From a virus: 31,870 bases of DNA. Shown piece after piece: positions 3,178 to 13,545 of this stretch. The notes beneath the pieces were generated by a model. It was given only the letters and a program-made list of their open reading frames with translations, was not told the DNA's origin and did no database searches. A program made the translations under genes and the position numbers. Positions within the stretch are counted from its first letter, which is position 1, and every line of letters begins with the position of its first letter. The stretch spans positions 1 to 31,870 of the IMG/VR virus record IMGVR_UViG_3300037341_000020; one strand, 5' to 3'.

Positions 3178-3183
3178 GGTTGG

Positions 3184-3348
3184 TTACTTGATTTGGCCCC
3201 GCTTGGCGAGCCAGTTATATGCGCCCTTGTAGCTTTTGAAGGTTTTAGAGGCCGAAAAGGTCAAGGCAGTGAAGGTGCCGTCGTTGTTTTTGTAAATCCC
3301 GGTGGCGATGCTTTCGTTGTTGCCGAGGGAGAGAACTCGTTCTTGCAT
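3184..3348 (-). CDS. DUF1391-like phage protein (54 aa)
   Basis: The core SLGNNESIATGIYKNNDGTF, followed by SASKTFKSYKGAYNWL, matches from memory the DUF1391 family (YdfA/YdaF-type proteins of E. coli Qin and Rac prophages). That family has the same LGNNES..YG...NQDGTFTAMT..SKTF pattern and a length near 50 aa. Its function is unknown. The start at 3348 follows AAAGGGCGCAGCC, a leader almost identical to that of the next gene to the right. It has its own promoter and terminator, so it is a single-gene unit. Confidence 0.75.
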   Translation of the reverse strand: MQERVLSLGNNESIATGIYKNNDGTFTALTFSASKTFKSYKGAYNWLAKRGQIK

Positions 3349-3842: not shown

Positions 3843-3935
3843 CCCTTTGTGTTAATCTATCGGAAAATCCTTGGCGTTGCGCGTATCGCGCCGCCTGGAA
3901 TTTTGTGTGTGGTCTGTGTGTCATACTGGGTAGCT

Positions 3936-3988
3936 TGTGGAAAAGTTGTGGAAAAGTTGTGGAAAAGTTGTGGATAACCTGTGGAAAA
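3936..3988 (+). repeat. five DnaA-box-like 9-mers at exact 11-bp period
   Basis: TGTGGAAAA occurs at 3936, 3947, 3958 and 3980, and TGTGGATAA at 3969. The last is a perfect match to the consensus DnaA box TTATCCACA read on the other strand; the others differ by one base. All five are spaced exactly 11 bp, one helical turn, so bound proteins would line up on one face. The array precedes the small terminase gene and overlaps its promoter. It could be a replication origin, a DnaA-responsive operator, or a small-terminase binding site. Confidence 0.75.
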
Positions 3989-3996
3989 CTTACTAT
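3968..3996 (+). promoter_or_regulatory. promoter TTGTGG-N17-TACTAT for the small terminase island
   Basis: TTGTGG (3968-3973) and TACTAT (3991-3996) are 17 bp apart, with AGGAG and the ATG at 4010 following. The -35 is part of the fourth repeat box and the fifth lies in the spacer, so a protein bound to the array would control this promoter. Confidence 0.55.
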
Positions 3997-4009
3997 AGGA
4001 GCCGCGTAA

Positions 4010-4405
4010 ATGGCTGAAGTTGAAGGCACTTTTATAGACAAGAATGGTTGCGAACGCGACAGCAACGGGAGACTAGTCGCAGGAAGTAAGACGCCAAACC
4101 CATCAGGGCGCCCAAAGGGCATTGGCTACGTCCGTGAAATCGCGCAAAATTACACGGAAGACGCGATCCGTGAGCTGTACTCCATTATGACGACATCCGA
4201 AAAGGACAGGGACCGTTTGGAGGCGGCCAAATACCTGTTAGATAGAGGCTGGGGCAAGCCGTCCACGAGCGTCGAAGTCCAGCACGAAAACGGCGATTCG
4301 CAAACTAAGATGATCGAGCTGTCAAAACTCTCAAAAGACCAGCTAGAGCAGTTGGAGGACATGATCGACATTGCCAAGGAAAGCCAGGGCGAGGGCGACG
4401 AATGA
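4010..4405 (+). CDS. terS: probable terminase small subunit / DUF5681-like (131 aa)
   Basis: The motif KTPNPSGRPKGIGYVREIAQ, then a helical region with LEAAKYLLDRGWGKP, is the NPxGRPKG plus HTH pattern seen in phage small terminases and DUF5681 proteins. The C-terminus is a charged helix (LSKLSKDQLEQLEDMIDIA), as expected for oligomer contact. A small terminase binds the packaging site and recruits the large subunit. AGGAG lies 9 nt before the ATG. It is unusual that it lies about 7.7 kb from the large terminase with an opposite-strand block between. DUF5681 proteins are not all terminases, so the role is likely but unproven. Confidence 0.7.
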   Translation: MAEVEGTFIDKNGCERDSNGRLVAGSKTPNPSGRPKGIGYVREIAQNYTEDAIRELYSIMTTSEKDRDRLEAAKYLLDRGWGKPSTSVEVQHENGDSQTKMIELSKLSKDQLEQLEDMIDIAKESQGEGDE

Positions 4406-6070: not shown

Positions 6071-6475
6071 TTAACCCTCTTTGATCGTCGCCATTTGCGC
6101 GTCACACGCGGCCAGCAGCCATTCCCGGTTAGCTCGCCAAAAGTCCAGCGCGTGCCTTGGGTCCATCTGATGGATCGTGTCATCATTGAAAGATCGCCAG
6201 TCCTCTACCTTATGCCGTTCGCAACCAATCCGCATGTAGCCGCTTTGGATATAAACCAGCCACGGCCCGACTTGCACTTGTAGGGGCGCGTCGTTGGCCC
6301 GTTGCAAGTCGGCCCCGTGCAGGCTGGCCCAGCGCAAGTCGGCCCAGCGCAAATCGGCCCAGCGCAGGGTAGCCCCCTGCAAATCAACCCCGCGCAGGTC
6401 GGCCCTTGCTCCTCCTTCTCCCCGCAGCCATTTTCCGTGCTCTTCAACAATACTATTCAGCTTTTCTTGATCCAT
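6071..6475 (-). CDS. pentapeptide-repeat protein (134 aa)
   Basis: Residues 24-60 are eight or so A(D/T)LxG/W pentads (ADLRG, ATLRW, ADLRW, ADLQR), which fold as a right-handed quadrilateral beta-helix. The lead EKLNSIVEEHGKWLRGEGG is usual for phage proteins of this class. The C-terminal 60 residues are a separate small domain (YMRIGCERHKVEDWRSFNDD, then FWRANREWLLAA). AGGAG is 8 nt before the ATG. The pentads are encoded by near-identical 15-bp units around 6320-6380. The cellular target is unknown; some relatives bind gyrase, but nothing here shows that. Confidence 0.85.
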   Translation of the reverse strand: MDQEKLNSIVEEHGKWLRGEGGARADLRGVDLQGATLRWADLRWADLRWASLHGADLQRANDAPLQVQVGPWLVYIQSGYMRIGCERHKVEDWRSFNDDTIHQMDPRHALDFWRANREWLLAACDAQMATIKEG

Positions 6476-6523
6476 TCTCTAAACTCCTGTGCGCTCTGTG
6501 ATCGATTCAGGCTCTCCGCCTAT

Positions 6524-9829: not shown

Positions 9830-10615
9830 TTACTGGTCACTTACGATGTCGTCACCTATTGCAAACGATTCAACCTGTCGCTTCGCGGCCTTACCTGCCT
9901 TGTTAGCGACTTGGCTGCACTGCTCATCCCCCTTCAACCCGTTCTCCTGGATCGAGAACGCAGCAAGCTCTTCCGCGATCAACGTTTTGGTCAGCTCCTC
10001 TCGCGTCATGTGGTCTCGCGTAGCAGGGTACGTCATTTTACCGCTCTCGGTCGGCAGACCGCGTTCTTCCCGGAGTTGCTTGTTGTTCTTGCCAAGGGCA
10101 CCTTGGTAAAGCATATTAGTAGCCATGCCGAATCCACGGCGGCTCACGTCATGGGCAGCAAGAACGTCGGTGAAGTAAGCGCGGTACAGCTTTCCGCGAA
10201 TACGGCTCGTGTCCCATTCGGGATCACGGTCCTGGTTTTGCATGTAGTTGTCAAGAGTCTCTTCTGCGACAGACGGGTCGCCAGCCTTGGCTCGCAGGAA
10301 AAGGTCATTGACTTCCTCGTGCAGCTCCGGGGACAGCCACTTCGCGTAGGCTAGGGCGATCTGCGCTGTTGCATAGGTGCCGCCCTTTCGACCGCGCTTC
10401 TTCTCCAAAACACCTTCAATTTCAGTGCTTTGTAAATCCCACACATCTGTGGTTTTTCCGATGTGCGCTATAAACGTTCGCGCCTCGTCCAACCTCAGCC
10501 AATGGTACGGACTATCTTGCTTTGCTTCTCCACTGGCCTTCCAAATGTCGGTCAGGCTAATCAGCCCTTCCTCGTTCTGCTTAATCTGAGTGTTACGAAT
10601 CGTAACGCTATTCAT
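9830..10615 (-). CDS. KilA-N domain protein (261 aa)
   Basis: Residues 15-110 fit the KilA-N DNA-binding domain: ISLTDIWKASGEAKQDSPYH, then GRKGGTYATAQIALAYAKWL and SPELHEEVNDLFL. The second half (RIRGKLYRAYFTDVLAAHDV, then GFGMATNMLYQGALGKNN) is a separate helical domain found behind KilA-N in other phage proteins. KilA-N proteins bind DNA and often act as phage regulators or antirepressor-type factors. GGAGG is 6 nt before the ATG, which overlaps the upstream gene by 8 bp. Which genes it controls is not visible. Confidence 0.8.
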   Translation of the reverse strand: MNSVTIRNTQIKQNEEGLISLTDIWKASGEAKQDSPYHWLRLDEARTFIAHIGKTTDVWDLQSTEIEGVLEKKRGRKGGTYATAQIALAYAKWLSPELHEEVNDLFLRAKAGDPSVAEETLDNYMQNQDRDPEWDTSRIRGKLYRAYFTDVLAAHDVSRRGFGMATNMLYQGALGKNNKQLREERGLPTESGKMTYPATRDHMTREELTKTLIAEELAAFSIQENGLKGDEQCSQVANKAGKAAKRQVESFAIGDDIVSDQ

Positions 10616-11174: not shown

Positions 11175-11186
11175 AGTGCCTCCAAA

Positions 11187-11321
11187 CAGAAAAAGCGGTA
11201 TGACCACTCATGCAAGGTGACAGTAGGCCGGGGAAGTAGCCTCTTGCACAAATGGTCATACCGCTTGTTCCTTCCCCGTTGAGTTCAATTCGGGCGAGGC
11301 TGTCACCCCTCGCTATCAACT
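11187..11321 (-). ncRNA. candidate structured leader RNA with two pseudoknots
   Basis: Predicted start is near 11321. Reading the minus strand: P1 GCGAGG/CCTCGC (11313-11308 with 11299-11294) with loop GGTGACAG; CGGGGAAG (11278-11271); a 14-bp perfect stem P2 (11266-11253 with 11206-11193); P3 (11248-11243 with 11216-11211); P4 AGGC/GCCT with CTTCCCCG in its loop (11236-11229); and CTGTCACC (11223-11216). The P1 loop is complementary to CTGTCACC and CGGGGAAG to the P4 loop, so two pseudoknots are possible. P2 is followed by five T and then the ribosome site of the KilA-N/T5orf172 gene. This fits an attenuator, riboswitch-like leader or free small RNA. Confidence 0.55.
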
Positions 11322-11327
11322 AAGACT

Positions 11328-11357
11328 ACTATAACACACGTCGGTTCAGCGCCACAA
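11328..11357 (-). promoter_or_regulatory. promoter TTGTGG-N18-TATAGT for the structured leader
   Basis: TTGTGG (11357-11352) and TATAGT (11333-11328) are 18 bp apart (17 if TTATAG is used). Transcription would begin near 11321, exactly at the 5' edge of the folded leader. Confidence 0.6.
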
Positions 11358-11843: not shown

Positions 11844-11869
11844 CCCCTCGCGCACGCGCGCGCGAGGGG
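11844..11869. other. 10-bp perfect GC hairpin
   Basis: CCCCTCGCGC (11844-11853) and GCGCGAGGGG (11860-11869) pair with a 6-nt loop. No T-run follows on either strand. The upstream GGGGTAAGAGC..TTTGCCCC can form a competing hairpin. It lies 16 bp before the late promoter's -35 and may be an operator, cos-type site or transcription insulator. Confidence 0.5.
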
Positions 11870-11885: not shown

Positions 11886-11913
11886 TTGAACTCATGTGGT
11901 AGTGTGGTAGACT
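11886..11913 (+). promoter_or_regulatory. late promoter TTGAAC-N16-TAGACT
   Basis: TTGAAC (11886-11891) and TAGACT (11908-11913) are 16 bp apart, with a start near 11920. It is the only good rightward promoter before the large terminase and likely drives the late operon. Confidence 0.6.
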
Positions 11914-11989
11914 AAGACGTGGAGCCTATGGATGGCTTTTGATACACGCCGGGTGCCTCTGACGCAAGCACACTTCTCGGCGTCTTTTC

Positions 11990-12031
11990 GCCCCGGTCAG
12001 GGATGGGAAGGCCCGTCCGCCGGGGCTTTTT
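11990..12031 (+). terminator. intrinsic terminator in the late leader
   Basis: GCCCCGG (11990-11996) pairs with CCGGGGC (12020-12026) over a 23-nt loop that can itself fold, followed by TTTTT. It lies about 70 bp into the predicted late transcript and before the terminase start. The arrangement resembles the pR'-tR' layout of lambdoid phages, in which an antiterminator is needed for late expression. Confidence 0.65.
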
Positions 12032-12066
12032 GTGAACTATTGCAGGCGTGTGTTATCATATGCGAT

Positions 12067-13545
12067 ATGAGTGAAGACCTCAAGCACATACTCGCCAACA
12101 TCTCGCACGAAGACATCGTTCGCGAGAAATGTGAGCGGTCATTCCATGAATTTGTTAAACACGCCTTCGGGGTTCTCGAACCCGGCGTGACTATGGATGA
12201 CAACTGGCACATCCAGGCAATCTGTGAGCACCTTGAGGCCGTGAACCGAGGTGAGGTGCAACGACTGCTAATTAACGTGCCACCGCGAACCATGAAGTCC
12301 CTATTGGTCAACGTGATGTGGCCGGTGTGGTCGTGGATTCATCGACCGCACCTCAAGGTCATTTCTATCTCATACAGTCACGAGTTGTCCGTGGGCCTGT
12401 CGGTGAATGCTCGCCAACTTGTTAAGTCTGACTGGTTCACGCGCTTGTGGCCGCACGTTAAGCTGAATGAAGACCAGGACGCGAAGCATTTCTTCGCGAC
12501 CACGCAAGGTGGTTTTCGTTACTGCACATCGACTCGCGGCACCCTGACCGGCAAGGGGGCGGACCTGCTGATCGTGGACGACCCCCATGACCCTAGTGGT
12601 GCGGAATCGGATCTTGAACGGCAACGTGCTATAAGGTGGTGGCGGGAGACGGCGAGTACGCGCCTTAACGACTTTCGCACGGGTGCGATTGTCAACGTGC
12701 AACAGCGCCTTCATGCCGAAGACTTGGCGGGCCACATGCTGGAAAGTGGTAACTATGACCACTTGAACTTGCCGATGCGGTTCGAGGAAGATAGGAAGGC
12801 GAAAACAAGCATTGGTTGGGAAGACCCGCGAACCGAGGAAGGTGAACTTCTCTGGCCGGAGCGTTTTACGGAAAGCGTTGTTGACGAACTAGAAAACTCG
12901 ATGGGTGGCTACGCCTTCGCCGGACAGATGCAGCAACGGCCCGTGCCTCGTGAAGGCGGGCTTTTCAAGACGGAATCTCTGCGCTACTTAGACTACCTTC
13001 CCGCTGATCCGATTGCCATTGTTCGTGCCTACGATAAGGCAGGAACCGAGGGTGGTGGCAAGCGAACCGCAGGCGTCAAGATGGCAGTTCTTCCAAAAAA
13101 CAATCTTGGCATCCGTTATGTTATTATGGATGTTGTCAAGGGCCAGTATTCCATTGCTCAACGGGAACAAATCATCAAAGAAACGGCCATAAATGATGGG
13201 CACGATGTAAAAATCTACATTGAGCAGGAGCCGGGTTCGGCTGGCAAGGAGTCTGCACTTAACACCGTAGCGAACCTTGAGGGCTTTTCCGTGCATCGTG
13301 ATCGTCCCTCCGGTGAAAAGACCGTGCGGGCCGAGCCTCTGGCAACGCAGATCGAGATTGGTGCCGTCGCGGTTCTTAATCGCCCTTGGGTGGACGCGTT
13401 TGTTGATGAGTTGTCCACGTTCCCGAATGGCAAATACTTGGACCAGTGCGACGCTGCCGCATTGGCATTCAATAAACTTTCTCGCGAAGCCATGTTCCAA
13501 GAAAAAGATGAGCCAATTCAACCGGCAATTCAAGTGGTTAAGTAA
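12067..13545 (+). CDS. terL: terminase large subunit (492 aa)
   Basis: The ATPase half has the Walker A motif INVPPRTMKS near residue 77, Walker B LLIVDDPHDP and a QQRLHAEDLAGHML coupling segment. The nuclease half has an AYDKAGTEGG acidic site, YIEQEPGSAGKE and DQCDAAALAF, all expected for large terminases. It cuts and pumps DNA into the prohead through the portal. The start at 12067 (MSEDLKHILANISHED) was chosen because the frame upstream crosses the leader terminator, though no strong ribosome site is seen there. A longer start at 11932 has GGAG. It shares TAATG with the portal gene. Confidence 0.9.
   Translation: MSEDLKHILANISHEDIVREKCERSFHEFVKHAFGVLEPGVTMDDNWHIQAICEHLEAVNRGEVQRLLINVPPRTMKSLLVNVMWPVWSWIHRPHLKVISISYSHELSVGLSVNARQLVKSDWFTRLWPHVKLNEDQDAKHFFATTQGGFRYCTSTRGTLTGKGADLLIVDDPHDPSGAESDLERQRAIRWWRETASTRLNDFRTGAIVNVQQRLHAEDLAGHMLESGNYDHLNLPMRFEEDRKAKTSIGWEDPRTEEGELLWPERFTESVVDELENSMGGYAFAGQMQQRPVPREGGLFKTESLRYLDYLPADPIAIVRAYDKAGTEGGGKRTAGVKMAVLPKNNLGIRYVIMDVVKGQYSIAQREQIIKETAINDGHDVKIYIEQEPGSAGKESALNTVANLEGFSVHRDRPSGEKTVRAEPLATQIEIGAVAVLNRPWVDAFVDELSTFPNGKYLDQCDAAALAFNKLSREAMFQEKDEPIQPAIQVVK

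Follow-up and report, generated by a model that had tools for sequence, protein, structure and literature searches.

A structured leader RNA with loop-loop complementarity ahead of a phage KilA-N/T5orf172 gene: a candidate attenuator whose plan recurs in unrelated phages

In the viral DNA considered here (IMG/VR record IMGVR_UViG_3300037341_000020; the window hereafter refers to the whole 31,870-nt stretch that was analysed), several complementary segments are crowded in front of a gene for a KilA-N/T5orf172 protein, and the question raised by this locus is whether they fold into a structured RNA at the start of a transcript and what such an RNA might do. Since that gene runs from 11174 to 10608 on the minus strand, the minus strand is the relevant one, where the element occupies 11325-11188, i.e., about 130 nt. 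The 188-aa product matches the Pfam families MUG113 (E 2e-8), T5orf172 (E 4e-8) and KilA-N (E 1.5e-4, below the KilA-N cut-off). As the next gene (9830-10615, minus strand) encodes a second KilA-N protein (Pfam E 1.5e-15), two KilA-N-type genes head the leftward cluster.

Read in the direction of transcription, the leader extends from about 11325 down to 11175 and is composed, from 5' to 3', of an extended -10 box, hairpin A, a spacer bearing arm C, the arms D and E, hairpin F, the arms B', E' and D', a UUU tract, GGAGG and ATG (Table 1). Together, D, a GU-rich join, E and F constitute one hairpin, with B' as its 3'-side bulge and C' lying within its apical loop. Each complementary arm pointed out by an earlier sequence-only reading was found in place when checked on the sequence, and so was the 14-bp stem it described as ending in TTTTT just before the ribosome site, the five U residues following the stem on the minus strand only. 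The promoter which that reading had set at the 5' edge holds only moderately, in that an extended -10 is present while the -35 is poor and a consensus scan remained silent. With a GC-containing hairpin and then a U-tract observed between promoter-like sequence and ribosome site, the locus has the shape of an attenuator leader, and because the terminator sits between promoter and ribosome site, regulated readthrough is implied; that the hairpin does terminate transcription is inferred.

Table 1. Features of the leader and its first gene, in window coordinates
Feature	Position	Strand	Basis or remark
Weak -35, TTGTGG, 18-nt spacer to -10	11357-11352	-	sequence
Likely -10 box TATAGT, extended TG-T-TATAGT	11328..11333	-	inferred from sequence; missed by consensus scan
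Helix A, 5' hairpin GCGAGG[GGTGACAG]CCTCGC, 6 bp, 8-nt loop	11294..11313	-	fold; stem covaries in other members
B arm GGTGACAG, loop of hairpin A	11307-11300	-	sequence
C arm CGGGGAAG, 5' half of second pseudoknot; overlaps Shine-Dalgarno-like GGAAGGA	11271..11278	-	counterpart CGGTAGG in L102
Helix D 5' arm AAGCGGTATGACCA, 14-bp terminator stem	11253..11266	-	sequence pairing
Helix E 5' arm TGCAAG	11243..11248	-	fold
Helix F, apical hairpin AGGC[TACTTCCCCG]GCCT	11225..11242	-	fold; 10-nt loop CACTTACCGA in L102
C' arm CTTCCCCG, inside helix F loop	11236-11229	-	pairs with C arm CGGGGAAG
B' arm CTGTCACC, 3' bulge between helices F and E	11216..11223	-	pairs with hairpin A loop
Helix E 3' arm CTTGCA	11211..11216	-	fold
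Helix D 3' arm TGGTCATACCGCTT	11193..11206	-	sequence pairing
U5 tract, end of intrinsic-terminator-like element	11190..11194	-	sequence; terminator scan
Shine-Dalgarno GGAGG of KilA-N/T5orf172 gene	11179..11183	-	sequence
Possible leader peptide ORF, 32 codons	11161..11259	-	ATG in helix D, Shine-Dalgarno in arm C, ends inside KilA-N start
KilA-N/T5orf172 (GIY-YIG-like) protein, 188 aa	10608..11174	-	first gene of leftward cluster

The minus strand folds with a z-score of -5.7, reached by none of 200 shuffles, and the plus strand less strongly (z -3.8); the long stem with its inner helices constitutes the longest inverted repeat within 120 nt across the 31.9-kb window (28-nt arms, 86%). When the stems were held fixed and the unpaired bases shuffled, comparison of the 5' part with the hairpin interior gave one exact 8-bp match in 2.8% of the trials and two disjoint ones in 0.02% (p about 2e-4), an observed excess that bears out the contention that so many exact matches are rare by chance. 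The B and C 8-mers are each unique to the element in the whole window, with one occurrence per strand. These figures weigh on the plainest account of the locus, namely an ordinary intrinsic terminator accompanied by an unrelated 5' hairpin, where the pairings would be by-products and the structure would insulate two divergent transcription units. While the terminator shape is clear and a divergent promoter region adjoins, two 8-bp pairings at this probability and the recurrence of the plan in unrelated phages (see below) tell against it, and an insulator would not stand between a promoter and the very gene driven by that promoter, so that we regard this account as unlikely.

The divergent region carries features of its own. 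A second, opposite-facing leader lies ahead of the terminase at 11890-12066 on the plus strand, with a promoter-like pair (TTGAAC-TAGACT), a 5' hairpin (GAGCC[TATGGAT]GGCTT) and two terminator-like hairpins (ACGCCG..CGGCGT TTTT and GCCCCGG..CCGGGGC TTTTT); its fold z-score is -2.3 and no loop complementarity was seen in it. The large terminase probably starts at 12067 rather than at 11932. A near-perfect 26-bp GC palindrome, CCCCTCGCGCACGCGCGCGCGAGGGG, is found at 11844-11869 in the noncoding divergent region.

Not all the pairings of the minus-strand leader can be held at once. The contact between the loop of hairpin A and B', with its 27-nt linker, is compatible with the whole hairpin. From A-form geometry, it is inferred that C-C' (CGGGGAAG/CTTCCCCG) cannot form alongside the hairpin at its full length of 24-28 bp, given that only 4 nt separate C from the hairpin base and C' lies at the tip; the proposal that both pseudoknots accompany the full stem is thus not supported. 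On the same geometric grounds, C-C' must represent an alternative state or need the upper helices open; E and F would have to be open for it to coexist with D. This suggests two states, A+B+C+D and A+D+E+F, the latter with or without B-B'. Nearest-neighbour energies, without pseudoknot terms, amount to -11.3 kcal/mol for A, -45.2 for ADEF, -14.0 for C alone and -24.3 for B+C, and since they are transcribed before D', C-C' and B-B' could form first. Arm C also enters into a reading by leader-peptide attenuation, in which translation of the 32-codon ORF would open the terminator and C-C' would hide the ribosome site of that ORF. The ORF (11259-11161) indeed has GGAAGGA 9 nt upstream and overlaps the KilA-N start, but an ORF this long is likely by chance and no corresponding leader ORF was seen in the other members of the plan, which leaves this reading with scarcely any credit.

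That the element matches no known RNA class, as had been claimed, stood up to a check against Rfam 15, where neither the window nor its relatives gave a match above the gathering score and permissive scans of both gave chance-level matches only. Pistol, twister and HDV-like ribozymes were rejected on helix order, together with the negative Rfam scan. Protein searches found no viral relatives of the KilA-N/T5orf172 gene or of the next KilA-N gene, no DNA similarity to the window was found in phages and plasmids, and the phage relatives in the collections are all distant (TerL at best about 47%, MCP 56-60%). In L064/L065, the nearest phages found with a readable upstream region (TerL 45%, MCP 56-60%), a comparable hairpin is absent and other genes stand there. 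A covariance model search from the single sequence returned only itself and partial matches, and a search with a 16-mer of hairpin A returned 7 stretches, about the chance expectation. At L003 4609-4640 (also in L008), an unrelated phage carries GGCGAGG[GGTGACAG]CCTCGCC, which matches hairpin A exactly over 21 nt and has no CTGTCACC nearby; chance or a loop motif in common are the only explanations we can offer.

The plan itself was retrieved by a pattern scan of IMG/VR in which GGTGACAG, CTGTCAC, the spacing and a T-run were fixed and the stems left free, yielding 52 stretches and 38 distinct matches. Besides the window, the full plan was observed in three lineages, i.e., L068/L072 (CGGG[GGTGACAG]CCCG ... 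terminator CCCGCCCC..GGGGCGGG TTTTTT), L074/L078/L099 (GCCG[GGTGACAG]CGGC ... ACCGTTGCAATTGG..CCAATTGCAACGGT TTTTTT) and L073 (GAACCT[GGTGACAG]GGGTTT ... ACCCCCGGAGAGAG..CTCTCTTCGGGGGT TTTGTTTT), in each of which a promoter is followed by a 5' hairpin, a terminator hairpin whose interior can pair with the loop of the first hairpin, a U-tract, a ribosome site and a gene. A joint criterion, namely a 5' stem of at least 4 bp and a terminator stem of at least 7 bp around the arms, was met by at least 3 of the 38 distinct matches (L068, L074, L078), where 0.018 were expected and 3000 shuffles gave at most 1; by its formal rule this represents two lineages, the T-runs of L073 and L072 being interrupted or earlier. 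In four other members, a -10-like box stands 8-19 nt before hairpin A (14 nt from the end of the -10 in the window) and the gene starts 9-27 nt after the beginning of the U-tract. The genes following the leader in L068/L072, L074/L078 and L073 are phage replication genes (initiator, DnaB-like helicase), the first gene of L074 having no PHROG match. The correspondence is not complete: a mid hairpin of the other members is missing from the window, the predicted minimum-energy 5' hairpin of L068 has a smaller loop, and the minimum-energy fold of L074 disrupts its 5' hairpin.

Among the remaining matches to GGTGACAG/CTGTCAC, those in L069, L070, L085, L101 and the L079 group were rejected as dyad repeat arrays and the others as resembling protein-coding sequence or chance. 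The inverted GTGACA/TGTCAC arrays lie at L069 2955-3055, L070 3051-3142, L085 near 3924-4012 and L079 near 4536 (with an identical group), and those of L069, L070, L085 and L079 are probably DNA operator or repeat arrays. The window might likewise be read as a DNA element, GGTGACAG and its inverted copy being operator half-sites for a DNA-looping repressor, perhaps the KilA-N protein, as the inverted copies are 76 bp apart and such repeat arrays exist in other phages (L069, L070, L085). Yet both copies fall in single-stranded parts of RNA hairpins with covarying stems, the spacing is variable, and the second copy of the plan in one phage, described hereafter, has an unrelated loop pair; little room is left for such an operator.

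That second copy was found with a sequence-blind descriptor in the phage of L078/L099, where the loop pair is ATACGAG/CTCGTAT and still complementary (L078b/L099b: ACTGCTGATG A[ATACGAG]A CATCAGCAGT, a middle hairpin, CGCCGCCATCGGTCAG[CTCGTAT]CTGATCGATGGCGGCG TTTTTT and a start codon). The two copies in L078 (same phage as L099), with different loop pairs, are located at 3181-3276 and 6397-6480 and precede a DNA helicase and a gene followed by DnaB. Further loop pairs are GTGAGACA/TGTCTCAC in L008, where the 5' stem is weaker, and GACTTTT/AAAAGTC in L024/L025/L029 (TerL relatives), which is of low complexity and less convincing. In its tight form (7 nt), the sequence-blind descriptor gave 12 matches, where control strings that were reversed, complemented or identical gave 1, 2 and 3; since several of the 12 had been preselected by GGTGACAG, little excess remains among the unselected ones. 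In its loose form (6 nt or a large interior) it did no better than controls. The descriptor gave no 7-nt match in phages with relatives of the L078 helicase (L138-L145), no such leader was seen by eye for initiator relatives of L072 (L124-L129), and 369 Bdellovibrionota genomes gave 2 background-level matches. At L133 1442-1526 (Stenotrophomonas phage SOVA965), a long stem ending in TTTTT lies upstream of the gene preceding a replication initiator, attenuator-like and without a clear 5' hairpin contact.

Paired changes, which had been put forward as a check, are indeed present in unrelated phages, affecting the 5' hairpin and the terminator stem as well as the loop-loop pairing. Across six lineages aligned over a gapless core, 97.4% of cells are paired and both sides change in 15 of 19 pairs, a result equalled in none of 500 shuffles. 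The letters of B-B' were fixed by the search in four GGTGACAG lineages, where this pairing is not independent evidence, and anything found with the descriptor, L099b included, had to contain every part to be retrieved; the unbiased evidence thus comes down to the A stem and the terminator stem in L068, L073 and L074. The plan, i.e., a 5' hairpin whose loop pairs with the terminator interior, with covarying stems, is met in the window, L068/L072, L073, L074/L078/L099, L078b/L099b, L102 and L008. Its recurrence with different letters in unrelated phages probably reflects a new RNA switch at the start of phage transcripts, as far as can be judged from sequence comparison.

For the second pseudoknot, support is much thinner. 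L102 represents the subtype of the window, with a long stem GTCGGTGTCTTTGTTCC/GGGACAAGGACACCGAC, an apical hairpin GGCG[CACTTACCGA]CGCC, B' as a 3' bulge, six U residues and a start codon, and its core aligns with the terminator core of the window (p 5e-4). Its spacer CGGTAGG is complementary to CTTACCG in the apical loop over 7 bp with one G-U (p 0.007, against 0.0025 for C-C' of the window in the same comparison). Because the A stem is only 3-4 bp and A and D may have a promoter between them, this support for C-C' remains suggestive only; pairing into the apical loop is seen in the window and L102 only, and the paired changes anticipated for it are thus weakly positive, in this one contig.

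Taken together, the structure is well supported, and the view that it is a new structured leader RNA, possibly an attenuator or a free RNA, gains support from the negative Rfam result and the paired changes, its function remaining inferred in the absence of any RNA data. Our preferred reading, to which we give a probability of roughly 0.6, is that the leftward transcript begins with an RNA attenuator, that loop-loop pairing tunes this attenuator, and that the RNA of about 130 nt it releases possibly acts in trans. Transcription would start about 7-10 nt before hairpin A, which would fold first, followed by the long terminator hairpin and U-tract directly before the first gene. B-B' would join the loop of hairpin A to the bulge inside the terminator hairpin and, in the member found in the window, C-C' would join the spacer arm to the terminator apical loop as well. 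During synthesis, B-B' and C-C' would compete with or reshape the upper terminator hairpin and so set readthrough into the operon, the terminated product being a compact RNA of about 130 nt. For the role of regulator, the most obvious candidate is the recurrent pairing of the first hairpin with the interior of the terminator. The direction in which B-B' and C-C' act is a matter of inference: sequence cannot distinguish whether B-B' delays the terminator, favouring readthrough, or holds it, and loop-loop pairing within a fully formed terminator need not alter termination.

Because the loops of the RNA are complementary to one another in pairs, the released RNA could act in trans like the P4 CI RNA, pairing with another leader during its synthesis and making termination there more likely, any such action being likewise inferred. 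Pressed further, this would make the terminated RNA of about 130 nt the functional product of an immunity or copy control, its loops pairing with another nascent leader so that the early operon is held off in a lysogen or limits its own expression, with specificity set by the loop sequence. Such a control would fit the mutually complementary loops within one transcript, the terminator ahead of early or replication genes and the fact that two copies within one phage differ in their loop pairs, and the P4 CI RNA does pair with two complementary sequences of the leader, seqA and seqC, and thereby ends transcription prematurely, so that the replication genes are not expressed (PMC4825925). There is, however, no evidence that the phage of the window is temperate, P4 has three boxes and the present leaders two, and sequence cannot separate pairing in cis from pairing in trans; we hold this control to be possible and rather improbable.

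Attenuation tuned within the leader itself, which we prefer, can be set against known systems. The put RNA of HK022 is structured, starts early phage transcripts and affects termination, doing so by modifying the polymerase and consisting of two simple stem-loops; to our knowledge, it has no terminator of its own and no loop complementarity. In the fluoride, ZTP and preQ1 riboswitches, a pseudoknot lies next to or within an intrinsic terminator, with a conserved aptamer sequence and metabolic genes, whereas the stems of the present plan share no sequence, its genes are replication or regulatory genes of phages, and Rfam is negative. The P_LE leader of P4 (seqA, seqB, seqC) and its CI RNA are alike in comprising an untranslated replication-operon leader, complementary boxes, premature termination and a small RNA (PMC4825925), and three of the present lineages (L068/L072, L073, L074) similarly have their leader before replication genes. 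P4 differs by its three boxes and processed CI RNA, where two hairpins, a terminator loop or bulge as partner and, in the window, a second pseudoknot are found here. As in P4, one leader transcript of the window holds complementary boxes (B-B' and C-C'). A middle box pairing with two others, as seqB does with seqA and seqC, is lacking in the window, where the transcript strand has GGTGACAG and its complement at a single place each, and the same holds for CGGGGAAG. In the Salmonella prophage Gifsy-1, IsrK is the leader RNA left when transcripts end at an intrinsic terminator; polymerase that reads through makes the mRNA instead, and the short form acts on this long one (PMC4825925). It differs in acting on orf45-anrP translation, no internal loop-loop plan is described in that source (PMC4825925), and no Rfam match was obtained here. 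The c4 antisense RNA of phages P1 and P7 is also a phage regulatory RNA with short complementary boxes (PMC12197685), being antisense on another transcript region and without a match here. The parallels with P4 CI RNA and IsrK are analogies of mode, not of membership.

Control of a phage leader terminator by RNA pairing is a known kind of regulation; the present plan and its members are absent from Rfam and were not described in the open papers searched, most subscription literature lying outside that search. As the plan can be found by structure search and not by sequence search, family libraries miss it. Phage immunity and lytic timing are nearly always credited to repressor proteins, RNA-only control being established in a few phages (P4, P1/P7). 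It remains speculative, and in our view doubtful, that a widespread undescribed class of phage RNA switches exists in which a loop-loop contact of the first hairpin of a transcript with the terminator downstream of it decides readthrough into the early operon and the released RNA serves as an immunity factor with a specificity of about 8 bases. An RNA plan that recurs in the leaders of unrelated phages, ahead of replication genes in three lineages, would provide a control element that is simple and can be programmed, together with an explanation, open to testing, of phages that lack an evident repressor.
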